Below, piece by piece: positions 10,516-15,233 of a stretch of DNA of 55,420 bases. The stretch is taken from contig NZ_LWQU01000119.1 of NCBI RefSeq assembly GCF_001650635.1, forward strand, positions 1 through 55,420, given 5' to 3'. Source of the DNA: Magnetospirillum moscoviense. Lineage in GTDB: Bacteria; Pseudomonadota; Alphaproteobacteria; Rhodospirillales; Magnetospirillaceae. Below the pieces are notes generated by a model. The model was not told the DNA's origin and made no database searches. It saw only the letters and a list, made by a program, of their open reading frames with translations. Both the position numbers and the translations under genes were made by a program. How positions within the stretch are numbered: position 1 is the first letter of the stretch; each line of letters opens with the position of its first letter.

Positions 10516-11244
10516 CTATTCGCCGTACAGACGGCGAAAGCCCGCCGAGACCTTCTCGATGAAGGCCGGGTCCTTCTTCTTCCAATAGCGCGGGTCCTGC
10601 AGCATGCGCTTCAGCTCATCCTCGTCGGGCTGGTCATCGCGGCCGGCCGGCAGCGCCCCCAGGCCCGGCTCGCCCGAGGCCATCATGTGGCGCATGGCGA
10701 TGATGCCGTCGGCCGAGCAGGACAGGGTCTGGTAGACCTCGGGCGGCAGGTTGGCCTGGCCCCAGGCCGCCAGCTGGCGGGCGGTTTCGGTCCATTTGGC
10801 GTCGCCGCCGAAATGCTCGCGCAGGCGGCTCAGATGGCTGCTGGCCTGGTGCTCGCCGGCCATGTGCTCGAAGGTCGGAATCACCCGCTCGTGCGCCAGA
10901 TCATAGACCAGCTGCGCCTGGGCAGGGGTGAAGCCGGCCTGGTGCAGGCGACGATTGACCTCGGGGTCGCTTTCCAGCATCGGGTGCCGGCACTCGATGC
11001 AATAATCCTCGGGCTTGTCCGGCACGCCGGCGGCGCGATGGAACGCCCGGATCTCCTCCTCGCCGGCCTGCTCGCCGGGCACGCGGACCGTGCCGCCCAG
11101 ACGGCGCTCCAGTTCCTGATAGGCTTTCAACAGGGCCTCGACCCGCACCGCGCCGGTTTCGGGGTCACGGAACTTGTCGGGAACCGATTGCGGACGGACG
11201 GTCGCCTCGCCCGGGCCGGGTTCCAGGGAATCTTCGTAATACAT
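10516..11244 (-). CDS. Phage capsid scaffolding/assembly protein
   Basis: A 242-residue acidic protein with a proline-rich start, a helical middle and a short basic end, the usual layout of scaffolds of T7-like or BPP-1-like phages. Visible landmarks are PDKFRDPETG near residue 22, a LLKAYQELERRLG helix, a VPDKPEDYCIE segment and a C-terminal DELKRMLQDPRYW. It would guide procapsid assembly inside the host. It follows the Bbp19-like gene with a 21-base gap. The capsid gene expected after it is absent. The family assignment rests on these features together with synteny. Confidence 0.72.
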   Translation of the reverse strand: MYYEDSLEPGPGEATVRPQSVPDKFRDPETGAVRVEALLKAYQELERRLGGTVRVPGEQAGEEEIRAFHRAAGVPDKPEDYCIECRHPMLESDPEVNRRLHQAGFTPAQAQLVYDLAHERVIPTFEHMAGEHQASSHLSRLREHFGGDAKWTETARQLAAWGQANLPPEVYQTLSCSADGIIAMRHMMASGEPGLGALPAGRDDQPDEDELKRMLQDPRYWKKKDPAFIEKVSAGFRRLYGE

Positions 11245-11265
11245 GACATGTCTCCTTTCGTGGTT

Positions 11266-11538
11266 TCACAGGCCGGGTTCGTGACGTCCGCGTTCAATCA
11301 GGTTCAGAATGTGCGCCACCAGCTGGCGCTGCCCCTCCAGGCAGCGCAATTGCGCTTCGCTGGCATCGGCGCCCAGGCAACGGTCCAGGGTCAGCGCCTT
11401 CAGATGATCCAGCGCCACCGCCCCGTCCGGGCCGGCGAAGGCCCGGGTGAAGGCGCGGGCGACGGCGTGGCGGTCCGCCTCGTCGGGCGGGGGCGGCGGC
11501 GGGGCGAACCAGCCCCAGCCGGGTTCGGACTTAGGCAT
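11266..11538 (-). CDS. Bbp19-family phage protein
   Basis: A 90-residue protein with a proline run near the N terminus, then FTRAFAGPDGAVALDHLK, TLDRCLGADAS and a closing LEGQRQLVAHILNLIERGR. This spacing is that of the small Bbp19-like structural proteins encoded between portal and scaffold in podoviruses; their exact role is not established. Its first eight bases overlap the end of the portal gene, so translation is probably coupled. Confidence 0.75.
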   Translation of the reverse strand: MPKSEPGWGWFAPPPPPPDEADRHAVARAFTRAFAGPDGAVALDHLKALTLDRCLGADASEAQLRCLEGQRQLVAHILNLIERGRHEPGL

Positions 11539-13057
11539 GGCTCACCTCGTTGGCGGGAACCGCCATCTCGGGGGCAAGATCGGCGCGGGTGATCAACTCG
11601 GCCGGCACGTTGAAGGCTCGGCCCAGCCAACGGGCGGCGGCGGCGGCATCGACCGCCTGCATGCCCGCCGGCCCCAACTGGGCCAGCGAGCCCAGCCAGG
11701 TCAGCATGTTGCGGGCATCGCGTTGGGCCTGGCTTTGCGCCAAGGGCGAGCGGTACTGCAAATCGACGGTGTGGCCATCGATCAGCAGGGGCGGAATCTC
11801 GCCGCGCCGGCGCAGGATGTGGACGGCACGCATGATCAACGGCGTCAGCAGCTCGCTTTGCAGGCGGCCAAAGGTGGCGCCCAGCAGCCTGGCCATCTCG
11901 GCGGAACGCTCCATGACCTCGGTGGCGGTCATGCCGGGCGCGTTGGGCTGGCCCAGCTTATCGACCAGCAGGGCATGGCGGATGCGGCCCCGCATGTCAT
12001 CGAGCACCAGTTGCGAGATGTCGAAACGGCCGGGCGCTTCCAGGGGCTGCAACCCGGCCGATCCCACCGCCTTGGGGATGATGGTGCCGGGCACCAGCTT
12101 GATGTTGGCCGGGTTCAGCACGCCGTCATCGTCGGCCTGCCAAATGCCGGTCACCGCGATGGTGGCGTTCTTCAGCACCAGCTCGACGACCTTGTTGGCG
12201 GTCTTGATGTCGGGCAGCGCCTTCATCACCGGCGAACGGCCATAGATTTCGCCGGGCGCCTTCAACCAGCGGAAATTGATGAAGGGGCTGTTGCCGAAGC
12301 GGCCCTGGGCCAGCAAAGGCTCGTCGGCGCCGTCTTGTTCCAGCACGGCGGCATAATCGTAGGTGCCGGCCGGATTGGGAATCACCGCCTCGACCACCGC
12401 GAACCTGGCCTCGGGGTCGTCCTTGGCCTGGCGGGTCAGGTTGTCCGGCACCGAATAGCCGGGAAAGCGCGCCCCGATCTGGGCCAGGGTCAGCTCGGAA
12501 CGACGCCAGGTGGCATCCAGTCGTCCGGTGGGGCCTTCCTCCAGCACCGCCTGGGCCAGCGGCACGGCGGTAAAGCGAAAGGCCGACGGCTCACCCGGGG
12601 CCGCCTCCTCGAACAGCAAACAGGCGGTGCCGCCGGTGACGACGTCCAGATAGCATTGGTGCATCTCGACGGCGAAGTTCGAGCGGTCGAAATGGCCCTG
12701 CAGCGCGGAGCCGACACGGTCCAGCACCTGGGCCGCCTGTTCGGCTTCGGCGGCGTCGAGCGAGGCGCCGGCGGTCAGGCCGAACCATTGCGCCCACGGC
12801 GGCGTCAGTTCCGACAGCAAGCTGGCGGCCAACTGATCGACGGCGTCCGGGGCGGTGCCGTCGAACAACCGGTCGCCGCGCTTCTCGCCGGGATTGGTCG
12901 CCTGCATGGCGCCATCACGCAGCGGCAGCGCATAGTCATAGCATTCCTGCCAATGCGCCTCCCAGGTCGAGCGGCGTTCCTTGGCCTTGCGATACCGGGC
13001 CAGCAACGCGCGGGCGTCGTCGTCCGGATCGACCAACGGTACGATGGGTGCGGTCAT
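11531..13057 (-). CDS. Phage portal (head-tail connector) protein
   Basis: A 508-residue protein of the T7 gp8-like head-tail connector family, the dodecameric ring at the portal vertex through which DNA enters the capsid. Landmarks: a basic N-terminal helix with RRSTWEAHWQECYDYALP, a GDRLFDGTAPDAVDQLAASL segment typical of the family, a central strand-rich domain, LGQPNAPGMTATEV, and a C-terminal crown-like helical part. Full family length and no internal stop. It precedes and overlaps the Bbp19-like gene. This is the firmest phage marker in the region. Confidence 0.9.
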   Translation of the reverse strand: MTAPIVPLVDPDDDARALLARYRKAKERRSTWEAHWQECYDYALPLRDGAMQATNPGEKRGDRLFDGTAPDAVDQLAASLLSELTPPWAQWFGLTAGASLDAAEAEQAAQVLDRVGSALQGHFDRSNFAVEMHQCYLDVVTGGTACLLFEEAAPGEPSAFRFTAVPLAQAVLEEGPTGRLDATWRRSELTLAQIGARFPGYSVPDNLTRQAKDDPEARFAVVEAVIPNPAGTYDYAAVLEQDGADEPLLAQGRFGNSPFINFRWLKAPGEIYGRSPVMKALPDIKTANKVVELVLKNATIAVTGIWQADDDGVLNPANIKLVPGTIIPKAVGSAGLQPLEAPGRFDISQLVLDDMRGRIRHALLVDKLGQPNAPGMTATEVMERSAEMARLLGATFGRLQSELLTPLIMRAVHILRRRGEIPPLLIDGHTVDLQYRSPLAQSQAQRDARNMLTWLGSLAQLGPAGMQAVDAAAAARWLGRAFNVPAELITRADLAPEMAVPANEVSHA

Positions 13058-13058
13058 G

Positions 13059-13262
13059 TCATTCCCCCAACAGACTTTTGCCCTGCCCGGCGACCGGGGT
13101 CAGGATTCCCCGTTCGTCGCCGGCGACCATGCCGGCACGACCGCGCCGATTGCGGGCGATGGAATCTTGCCGGGCCTTGCGAGCCTCGACCTCGGGATCA
13201 ATCGTCGCCGGCATCGGCGGCGGAGCCGGCGGCTCGGGCGAGCCACCTAGGAAACCACCCAT
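13059..13262 (-). CDS. Small phage-associated protein, unknown
   Basis: A 67-residue proline-rich protein (MGGFLGGSPEPPAPPP start) with a basic middle (EARKARQDSIARNRR) and a glycine-rich end. It lies one base upstream of the portal gene and its start overlaps the end of the 176-aa gene, so it belongs to the same transcript. GGAGG upstream of ATG 13262 supports translation. Short proteins of this look occur next to portals in related prophages; no function can be given. Confidence 0.6.
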   Translation of the reverse strand: MGGFLGGSPEPPAPPPMPATIDPEVEARKARQDSIARNRRGRAGMVAGDERGILTPVAGQGKSLLGE

Positions 13263-13777
13263 GGGAACCTCCTATGCTGAATGGTCTTGTTTTGTTCTTT
13301 TTGCTGTCGCAAAAATTCCGCTGCCCGGCTTCGGGCGACGGGTGAAATCCGGTCTTTCCGGACACCACGCTTTTGGATATATGCCAAAGGCGGGTTAAAA
13401 TCAAGGCTAATCTTCCTATGGCGGGAAATATGCTTATATAATTGCCATGGCGTGAGAATGTCACCGGCGTTAATTCCCAGGACGCGCTTGACCTCTTCAA
13501 CGCAAGAGTATGGTCTCCACGGCATTGCTACTCCATTAGGGTCATGCATTCTGGCTGAAACAACCTGAAAGTTGTGTCGCTCATACCATCGACGTAGCTC
13601 GTCGGCGCTGGCCGCCGGGACGATCGCCACCCGGGTCCGATCGGACAAGGGATCGATCACCACCCAGCCCCCCGCACCCTCGACGGCGACAAAGCAATGG
13701 CGAAATCCCGGCCGCAGCAATCTCAGCCACCACAACCCGGCGCCATCGCCGAAGAACACCAAGGCCCGGGCGGTCAC
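13247..13777 (-). CDS. Phage-associated protein, possible permuted papain-fold hydrolase
   Basis: A 176-residue protein from GTG 13777; a longer upstream extension overlaps another gene and is rejected. A strand GFRHCFVAVEG carrying a histidine is followed by WVVIDPLSD and, about 60 residues later, PYSCVEEVKRVLGI with a cysteine at a helix start. Histidine before cysteine in this setting resembles permuted NlpC/P60 enzymes, but this is a guess from pattern. The 3' half (13270-13570) is clearly richer in A+T than its neighbours, suggesting a foreign or fused end. The start overlaps the 121-aa gene by four bases. Confidence 0.6.
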   Translation of the reverse strand: MTARALVFFGDGAGLWWLRLLRPGFRHCFVAVEGAGGWVVIDPLSDRTRVAIVPAASADELRRWYERHNFQVVSARMHDPNGVAMPWRPYSCVEEVKRVLGINAGDILTPWQLYKHISRHRKISLDFNPPLAYIQKRGVRKDRISPVARSRAAEFLRQQKEQNKTIQHRRFPWVVS

Positions 13778-14139
13778 GCCACGATCCCCCGCTGACGCAG
13801 ATCGACATCCAGGTAATCCAGCGCCTCGGCCCACAGCACGGCCTGCCCCGCGCCGTCGCCGGCCCGGGGATCGGGCGGGCACTGGCTGGCCGCGAAACGG
13901 CCCAGAACGCGAAGATGCCTGCCGCCAATCCGCCGCAGACGATAAAGCCGTTGCACCGCCCGATAGATGTCGTCGGGATCGCACGGCCTGGCGACATCGC
14001 CCTGCCCCGCCTGCAACCGCGCCCCCACGGCCCGGGCCAACTGGCACGCGCCGAACCACATCCAGGCCTCCTCGGCACTGCCGAAAGGTTGTCCATCCGC
14101 CTGCCCGAGCGGGCGCGGCACGTAGCGCAATCGCGTCAT
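13774..14139 (-). CDS. Phage-associated protein of unknown function
   Basis: A 121-residue protein beginning MTRLRYVPRP from ATG 14139, which has GAGGGAAAG just upstream; ATG 14163 would add eight residues without a good ribosome site. It contains EEAWMWFGACQLARAVGARL and an AVLWAEALDYLDVDLRQRG end, mostly helical and soluble. It is the first gene of the minus-strand phage block, followed by a four-base GTGA overlap into the 176-aa gene. I do not recognise the family. Confidence 0.6.
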   Translation of the reverse strand: MTRLRYVPRPLGQADGQPFGSAEEAWMWFGACQLARAVGARLQAGQGDVARPCDPDDIYRAVQRLYRLRRIGGRHLRVLGRFAASQCPPDPRAGDGAGQAVLWAEALDYLDVDLRQRGIVA

Positions 14140-14234
14140 CTTTCCCTCAATCGACGAGAACATTCGATGAACTCTTATGGCGCGCGCAGCGGATTAGAGT
14201 CAAGATGTTTTAGGTTTTTTTTCCTGCTGCAGGA

Positions 14235-14249
14235 TCGCACGATTTGCGA
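14235..14249. promoter_or_regulatory. Possible repressor operator
   Basis: TCGCA (14235-14239) and TGCGA (14245-14249) form a short dyad with a 5-base centre, 12 bases before the S24 repressor ATG and facing the divergent phage block. An operator for autoregulation is plausible but the arms are short. Confidence 0.25.
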
Positions 14250-14261
14250 GACCATCTTCCC

Positions 14262-14897
14262 ATGTTGAAGCACGCCGATATCTGGGCGGCCATTGATGCC
14301 CTGGCCCGCGACAATGGGTTGACCGCGTCAGCCCTGGCCCGACGGGCTGGGCTTGACCCGACCACGTTCAACAAAAGCAAGCGCATCACCCGCGAGGGCA
14401 AACCCCGCTGGCCATCGACCGAAAGCGTTTCCAAGGCCCTTGAGGCCACGGGCGCCACCCTGGGCGACCTGGTCACCTATATCGAGGGCGGCAACCGGCA
14501 GCCGCGCCCGACCGCCACGGTGCCGCTGATCGGCTTCGCCCAGGCCGGCGACCGCGGCTTCTTCGACGATGCCGGCTATCCGGTCGGCGGCGGCTGGGAC
14601 GAGATCCCGTTCCCCGAGATCGGCGACGCCCACGCCTATGCTCTGGAAGTCTCGGGCGACAGCATGGAACCGCTGTACCGGGCCGGCGACACCATCATCG
14701 TTTCGCCCGGCGCCTCGGTCCGACGCGGCGACCGCGTCGTCGTGCGCACCACTGCCGGCGAGGTGATGGCCAAGGAATTGCTGCGCCAGACCGCCAAGCG
14801 CATCGAGCTGGCCTCGATCAATCCCGCCCATCCCGGCCGCAGCCTCGCCACCGAGGAGGTGGCATGGATGGCCCGCATCCTGTGGGCCAGCCAATGA
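14262..14897 (+). CDS. S24-family (CI/LexA-like) transcriptional repressor
   Basis: A 211-residue two-domain repressor. An N-terminal helix-turn-helix (about 1-75) contains TASALARRAGLDPTTFNKSK and STESVSKALEATG; the C-terminal S24 domain carries the Ala95-Gly96 cleavage-site pair in FAQAGDRG, nucleophile Ser134 in SGDSMEPLY and general-base Lys171 in VMAKEL. All parts of the autocleavage machinery are therefore present, so RecA-stimulated self-cleavage after DNA damage is expected. ATG 14262 is preferred to TTG 14244. It is divergent from the phage genes it probably controls and is followed by a gene behind an SOS box. Confidence 0.88.
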   Translation: MLKHADIWAAIDALARDNGLTASALARRAGLDPTTFNKSKRITREGKPRWPSTESVSKALEATGATLGDLVTYIEGGNRQPRPTATVPLIGFAQAGDRGFFDDAGYPVGGGWDEIPFPEIGDAHAYALEVSGDSMEPLYRAGDTIIVSPGASVRRGDRVVVRTTAGEVMAKELLRQTAKRIELASINPAHPGRSLATEEVAWMARILWASQ

Positions 14898-14934: not shown

Positions 14935-14963
14935 TTGACTTTTTTGTTCACTTATTGTTCTAT
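14935..14963 (+). promoter_or_regulatory. SOS promoter: LexA box within a near-consensus sigma70 promoter
   Basis: TTGACT at 14935-14940 and TTCTAT at 14958-14963 are 17 bases apart. GTTC at 14946-14949 and GTTC at 14957-14960 are seven bases apart, exactly the alphaproteobacterial LexA box GTTC-N7-GTTC, lying in the spacer and the -10 box. The predicted transcription start, about seven bases after the -10 box, falls on the ATG at 14970. Confidence 0.78.
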
Positions 14964-14969
14964 CGCAGC

Positions 14970-15233
14970 ATGGATTGCCTCGCGCTTGAACGCCGTTACG
15001 ACAGCCCCATTCCCGCCGCCGACCCGGCCGCCCCGCCACCGCCACCGGTGGCCCTGCTGGTGCGCCTGCTGCGCGAGGGACGGGAACGGCTGGGCCGGCG
15101 GCGGCTGACCCTGCCGCCCGGCCACCCCCGCCTGGAGATGGCGGCGGCCGACATCGGCGCCTATCGTCATGGCTTGGTACGCGTCCTGCCGACCGGCCCG
15201 GCGGCTGGTGTCCTGCCCCCGAAACTCGCATAG
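14970..15233 (+). CDS. Small SOS-controlled protein, probably leaderless mRNA
   Basis: An 87-residue protein starting MDCLALERRY, with a run of prolines at 25-29, an arginine-rich helix (LLVRLLREGRERLGRRR) and no membrane segment or known domain. Its start coincides with the transcription start predicted from the promoter at 14935-14963, and no ribosome site precedes it, so translation is probably leaderless. A TTG at 14955 in frame would lie inside the LexA box and is rejected. Small SOS-induced proteins in other alphaproteobacteria (SidA, DidA in Caulobacter) block cell division, but no similarity is visible here, so the function is unknown. Confidence 0.65.
   Translation: MDCLALERRYDSPIPAADPAAPPPPPVALLVRLLREGRERLGRRRLTLPPGHPRLEMAAADIGAYRHGLVRVLPTGPAAGVLPPKLA

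Follow-up and report, generated by a model that had tools for sequence, protein, structure and literature searches.

The window analysed here, the whole of contig NZ_LWQU01000119.1 of Magnetospirillum moscoviense (55,420 nucleotides, nt; contig C119 of genome G000 in our numbering), carries an 87-codon gene directly behind the gene of a phage-type S24 repressor, and divergent from that repressor lies an operon of podovirus head genes (Table 1). The small gene has a promoter whose -35 and -10 elements are 17 nt apart (14941-14957), and a LexA-type box, GTTCACTTATTGTTC, spans this spacer and the -10; the frame opens with the ATG at 14970 and closes with the TAG at 15231-15233. A first-pass annotation, made from the letters alone, had located box, promoter, start codon and frame correctly, and had proposed that LexA would cover the polymerase site, that the start would probably be leaderless and that the product would be a new SOS effector, perhaps a division inhibitor or a phage-linked toxin. 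Comparison with relatives supports control of the LexA type and a probably leaderless start, whereas the reading of the product should shift from a new SOS effector to a proposed SOS-induced partner of S24 repressors.

Table 1. Features of the small-gene locus and the divergent operon, in window coordinates
Feature	Position	Strand	Basis
Capsid assembly (scaffold) protein, T7 type	10516..11244	-	PF05396, 1.8e-15
Bbp19-like phage protein	11266..11538	-	PF25181, 4.5e-14
Podovirus portal (head-to-tail connecting protein)	11531..13057	-	PF12236, 1.3e-155
Second gene of divergent operon (WWLRLLRPGFRHCFV...SCVE.VKR), overlaps first	13247..13777	-	Open reading frame; like frames in relatives
First gene of divergent operon, 121 residues, no family	13774..14139	-	Open reading frame; like frames in relatives
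Second LexA box GTTCATCGAATGTTC, ahead of divergent operon	14158..14172	-	Sequence; conserved
Conserved S24-promoter motif AGGTnTATnTTCCTGnTGC, candidate S24 operator	14212..14230	+	S24 upstream regions compared; operator role putative
S24/helix-turn-helix (HTH) phage-type repressor with Ala-Gly site, Ser and Lys; alternative start TTG 14244	14262..14897	+	Pfam S24 4.5e-22, HTH_26, PHROG 4
-35 TTGACT, small-gene promoter	14935..14940	+	Sequence
LexA box GTTCACTTATTGTTC	14946..14960	+	Sequence; exact box kept across genus and IMG/VR contigs
-10 TTCTAT, overlapped by second GTTC of box	14958..14963	+	Sequence
87-codon gene, basic soluble-looking protein, N-terminal ERRYDSPIP (RYDGPIP family), probably leaderless	14970..15233	+	Open reading frame, alignment, comparison

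GTTC-N7-GTTC is given as the LexA motif of Caulobacter in excerpts of a published account (PMC12700426), and the lexA gene of the window's own genome has a GAAC-N7-GAAC box in its upstream region. Taken alone, box and promoter are not significant: the window holds three exact boxes against 1.10 expected, a number reached by 12 of 100 shuffles, and there is no genome-wide enrichment (92 exact boxes versus 98 for a reversed control pattern). The -10 agrees with TATAAT at three of six positions, and a consensus promoter scan gave no match because it requires an A at the second position of the -10, which is absent here. The evidence for box and gene is their conservation.

A first protein search with the small gene matched 12 of 61 genomes, and a profile built from 12 members found it in 30 of 55 genomes of the family; these include every one of the 13 genomes from the window's genus and 14 of the 17 from a sister genus. 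The exact GTTC-N7-GTTC stands ahead of the gene in all 13 genus genomes and on both IMG/VR contigs found to carry it, and these 15 sequences formed our promoter set. Within this set the eight box bases are invariant, the seven-base spacer shows 13 distinct sequences, and in 14 of 15 cases the earliest in-frame ATG stands 9-13 nt past the box; the exception, G006, has a first in-frame ATG 2 nt past the box and a second, read by eye, at 11 nt. The Shine-Dalgarno-like tetramers AGGA, GGAG, GAGG and AAGG are absent between box and ATG in all 15, and the distance from the ATG to the ERRYDGP motif is variable (18-39 nt), which suggests that the position of the start follows the promoter and not the protein. 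At 17-nt spacing, the -35 begins with TTG in nine, TGG in four and TCG in two, while the -10 reads TCTANN in 10 of 15 and TCTAAT in 5 of 15. Leaders in the sister genus are longer, often with an SD-like (Shine-Dalgarno-like) tetramer; the 13 testable genomes of that genus comprise nine with the exact box, one with a single mismatch and three with no box. For G064, a contig end truncates the upstream region. Purifying selection acts on the frame: the ratio of nonsynonymous to synonymous rates (dN/dS) ranges from 0.17 to 0.53 among the 22 closest pairs, and the nonsynonymous proportion is below the synonymous one (pN<pS) in 225 of 231 pairs (22 of 23 sequences; G073 unparsed). On these comparisons the small gene is very likely under SOS control of the LexA type, and a leaderless start, with the ATG at the expected 5' end of the mRNA, is probably correct and a good inference for the genus.

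The predicted product is one of 28 aligned proteins of 82-111 residues, with an isoelectric point (pI) of at least 9.8 in 27 of them. The N-terminal ERR[YHWF]DGP[IV]P is nearly invariant across the family alignment, and a YR pair is conserved towards the C-terminal end. None of the 28 members exceeds 0.93 in maximum hydropathy over 19 residues, and for this reason we assign the family no membrane helix. As the first-pass annotation had supposed, the window's protein has no known domain, with no match in Pfam, PHROG or NCBIfam; 27 family members gave only single scattered matches to family libraries. Among 50,697 phage records no match was found, and among solved structures the family obtained weak matches only (best E 0.029, to RNF168).

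The most informative property of the family is its place behind S24 genes. At E 0.01, distant relatives of the small gene were found in 62 of 317 genomes of the order, many of them weak. From 36 non-core rows, 21 loci picked before reading were read (14 were not fetched, and G111, fetched as a 22nd, was judged a false match and its neighbours were not read). An S24 gene lies directly upstream in 16 of these 21 order-level loci, whose small genes have a RYDGPIP-like N-terminal motif; the genus genome G010 contributes one of the 16 with its second locus, and those without a directly upstream S24 gene are G054, G235, G241, G223 and G188. At class level, with the expectation set down before reading, S24 was upstream on the same strand in 9 of 13 loci, the 13 including G592 and G496, which show no motif and were judged false. 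In G368 the S24 gene is 346 nt away from the small gene, G509 and G448 have none directly upstream, and the N-terminal motif is missing in G318 and loosened in several other class-level loci. The upstream proteins are not all of one sequence group: of those assigned to other sequence groups, all 10 scanned proved to be Peptidase_S24 above the Pfam cut-off (six order-level, which the ortholog search left unmatched or matched elsewhere in the genome, and four class-level, judged different by eye). The window's whole genome has three S24 genes in all, so this neighbourhood is hardly due to chance, and it is compatible with several roles. We also considered whether the small gene is a general companion of the orthologous S24 in distant families and found that mostly it is not, as the strict motif was found in 0 of 40 distant genomes (S24 unparsed in 13 of the 40) and a looser motif in 3 of the 39 that could be parsed (all but G193).

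The S24 gene itself is widespread: at E 1e-40 the order has orthologs in 184 of its 314 genomes, with a single match in each except G010 and G083. The autocleavage residues noted in the first-pass annotation are present: the Ala-Gly site, Ser and Lys occur in 40 of 41 parsed S24 proteins by a strict pattern (G146 and G040 unparsed) and, by our count, in 49 of 55 aligned orthologs including that of the window. One or more cleavage or catalytic residues are lost in the S24 proteins of G014, G016, G019, G026, G050 and G254. Such loss was found in 6 of 18 S24 proteins from genomes without a portal match versus 0 of 37 from genomes with one (Fisher p 0.0006, with incomplete assemblies among them), as if autocleavage were kept only together with the phage genes. 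No solved structure matched the repressor at E 0.001, and its 43 matches to phage records are all below 60% identity. The bases before the S24 ATG (GAC.AT.TTCCC; 14244-14262) are conserved across families despite a preceding in-frame stop seen by eye, and may therefore be a leader element and not coding. The S24 gene of G009 is cut by a contig end.

Facing the repressor, the head operon (10516-14163, minus strand) looks like a domesticated podovirus gene set. The first-pass annotation was silent on this operon and on the second LexA box ahead of it (14158-14172). The phage link it had suggested for the small gene is supported by comparison. The second box is exact in 11 of 12 genus genomes, with one mismatch in G006, and lies at -101 to -105 from the S24 ATG; in distant genomes an exact box occurs 103-118 nt upstream of S24 in 15 of 39, each expected at 0.4% by simple arithmetic that ignores relatedness. 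Of the 314 genomes of the order, 138 have a portal match at E 1e-120, a single one except in G002 and G010. A capsid match was obtained in all 41 genomes chosen, partial in G012, G018 (a 73-residue piece) and G071 and double in four. The capsid gene shares the cluster in G003 and G010, and the window's genome has it on a separate contig, in the stretch G000:C10:4464-6702, 1.4 kb from a further exact box. In G029 the capsid is followed by frames taken for tail genes and a terminase; the tail and terminase names rest on resemblance, because Pfam gave no match for three tail-like proteins of G003, and for the terminase a weak one under the cut-off. In the stretches read, none of the genes was recognised as serving integration or replication; no systematic search for such genes was made. 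From identity and place, we infer that the set has been vertically inherited. The operon is perhaps a podovirus-derived gene transfer agent (GTA).

Where small gene and repressor are separated, the LexA box can stay with the small gene: it is exact in G006, G063 and G069, in which the two genes sit on different contigs, and in the class-level G509, with no S24 beside the small gene. At other small-gene promoters a different motif appears. A site for the S24-promoter weight matrix (p<0.05) was found at 8 of 16 small-gene promoters listed as boxless versus 3 of 24 boxed ones (Fisher p 0.014, or 0.009 after G066, listed boxless in this test although it has an exact box, is moved to the boxed class). 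The test left out G005, which was unparsed, and G180 and G218, which had no motif core. In family f2 no box was found at either promoter, and by eye the ATG still lies just behind the -10. These patterns are hinting that small-gene promoters have exchanged one RecA-cleavable repressor (LexA) for another (S24) with the SOS output kept.

Taken together, we consider it somewhat favoured by the comparative evidence that the small protein is a functional partner of S24 repressors. The fuller proposal, that it is an SOS-induced partner of the S24 encoded upstream and belongs to the circuit that regulates a domesticated set of podovirus-like genes, has in our view an even chance of being right. Under this model, DNA damage would activate RecA, LexA would cleave itself and the leaderless small-gene promoter would open. 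SOS induction would remove LexA and probably S24 as well; the small protein would bind S24, perhaps via its conserved N-terminal RYDGPIP segment, and would either weaken the hold of S24 on DNA, as an antirepressor, or promote S24 cleavage. Promoters held by S24 could then open together with those held by LexA. In genomes whose small gene answers to an S24-type operator instead, its product would create a positive feedback loop. That the protein is an antirepressor in the strict sense is possible and somewhat doubtful.

A firm parallel for such an antirepressor comes from the Gifsy prophages, whose antirepressors GftA, GfoA and GfhA are described, in the excerpted text of PMC3121763, as small and directly LexA-controlled, the Gifsy repressors being not cleaved; a relative, FsoA, is there placed under its own phage repressor instead. 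By description, the small gene resembles the former as a gene, very likely LexA-controlled, for a small protein tied to a phage-type repressor, and some of its relatives may resemble FsoA in being under a phage-type repressor. Unlike in Gifsy, the small gene here is adjacent to the repressor gene, and the repressor keeps its autocleavage residues, so that inactivation other than by cleavage, which marks the Gifsy repressors, is not what the residues suggest.

Several points weigh against a partnership with S24. Since 49 of 55 orthologs retain the residues for autocleavage, S24 would not strictly require an antirepressor, in contrast to the Gifsy repressors, which are not cleaved. The small gene was not found in 3 of 17 sister-genus genomes (G072, G074 and G075) that have both S24 and portal; in G072 and G075 another sequence occupies the place behind S24, and for G074, whose contig stops 104 bases past S24, only the whole-genome searches indicate absence. 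Adjacency is in itself only suggestive, because phage repressor neighbourhoods hold many kinds of small gene, and the 21 order-level loci were chosen by the authors from the 36 non-core rows. Behind the S24 ortholog of the parsed distant genomes, the motif was met in 3 of 39 and in its looser form, and in G021 the small gene is away from S24 and without a box. The motif comparison behind the presumed promoter exchange used mononucleotide shuffles, related sequences, few promoters and a cut-off set after the run.

Among other roles for a protein in this position, that of a Cro-like second regulator or operator-binding co-repressor is unlikely. A strongly basic protein could bind DNA and compete with or assist S24 at the divergent promoters, and the high pI of 27 of 28 members, the place beside a repressor and the S24-promoter-like motif at some small-gene promoters would all suit such a role. 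However, arginine-rich proteins encoded by GC-rich genomes often have a high pI, and the window's protein matched no HTH or other DNA-binding family.

We regard as improbable that the small protein is itself part of the phage-particle programme (assembly, DNA packaging or release) and merely co-induced with the head operon. LexA boxes on both operons would fit, as would a locus in G241 (L124:1187-1726), where a RYDGPIP relative lies directly behind a relative of the G010 protein found between capsid and tail genes. However, the small gene also occurs behind S24 genes of other sequence groups (head genes were not tested there), and the protein has no PHROG match and no counterpart in the phage records searched.

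An SOS-induced cell-division inhibitor or toxin, as the first-pass annotation had it, found no positive support beyond LexA-type control and is quite improbable. LexA-type control, small size and absence from some close genomes would suit either; the lack of a family match, the lack of a membrane helix and the association with repressor genes speak against both, as may the absence from three of the 17 sister-genus genomes. SidA and DidA are membrane proteins with a single membrane helix. Both are damage-induced division inhibitors of Caulobacter, SidA being SOS-induced (excerpts of PMC12700426) and DidA SOS-independent (excerpts of PMC4211646). Unlike these two, the small-protein family is without a membrane helix and tied to S24 genes; the LexA of Caulobacter uses the GTTC-N7-GTTC box type that is also seen at the small gene. 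The small gene is probably a helper that acts with S24 on tamed virus genes and not a free-standing toxin. A chance box before a spurious frame, for which the lack of enrichment in window and genome and the weak -10 could be cited, is contradicted by the presence of the box throughout the genus (13 of 13 genomes), by the divergence of its spacers and by the selection that preserves the frame, and we give it hardly any credence.

Like phage CI/S24 repressors, the S24 protein discussed here is an S24/HTH repressor encoded divergently from a phage operon. Unlike them, it finds matches in 184 of the order's 314 genomes, many of which carry LexA boxes in the divergent promoter, and its gene adjoins head genes and not an early replication region. 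As in RcGTA and BaGTA (PMC9662315, excerpts), phage head genes have been long retained, and the mark of GTAs that structural genes are long kept with one strong match per genome is seen in portal and S24. In contrast to RcGTA and BaGTA, portal and capsid are of the podovirus type (PF12236, PF19821), and the system is not known to form particles or to transfer DNA. Some Bartonella GTA particles have been reported as short-tailed (PMC9662315); that paper makes no mention of Rhodospirillales, LexA or SOS and contains "podovir" once, in a reference title. Mitomycin-C-induced particles of Azospirillum, with about 10 kb in A. lipoferum and B510, were set beside RcGTA-like genes in excerpts of PMC3899980. 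Among the matches listed in our literature search, there was no description of this gene pair or of a podovirus-type GTA in Rhodospirillales. The broadest proposal, that Rhodospirillales share an SOS-controlled podovirus-derived GTA ruled by RecA-cleavable LexA and S24 with exchanged promoters, and that RYDGPIP proteins are a class of S24 partners coupling both regulators across Alphaproteobacteria, is speculative and, as a whole, rather unlikely.

If this account is right, a nameless family of small proteins would become a testable class of repressor partners, and the order would gain a candidate DNA-damage-induced, phage-derived particle system distinct from the siphovirus-like RcGTA. The LexA/S24 exchange at one promoter would then be a natural rewiring in which the repressor is swapped and the SOS output kept. 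The start codon at a fixed distance from a LexA-covered -10 could also serve as a simple SOS reporter for the genus.

Further LexA-type boxes were noticed around the phage genes. Inside the divergent operon, the window has a one-mismatch box at 13283-13297 (plus strand), where relatives have a third exact LexA box (L016:11920, L114:3435 and L115:3435). Exact boxes also stand beside the capsid locus (L170:4464-4478, and L171:2447 in reverse orientation). In G007, visual inspection of the sequence behind the capsid-side box shows about 90 bases and a hairpin resembling a terminator, without an obvious gene; this may be a short RNA induced by SOS. At gathering thresholds, Rfam gave no match for this element and none in the window. 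The window's genome has a second, diverged podovirus portal (40% identity) and capsid (81%) at G000:C136:2817-9014, with two overlapping LexA-type boxes at C136:2817-2842, and this locus is perhaps a true prophage.
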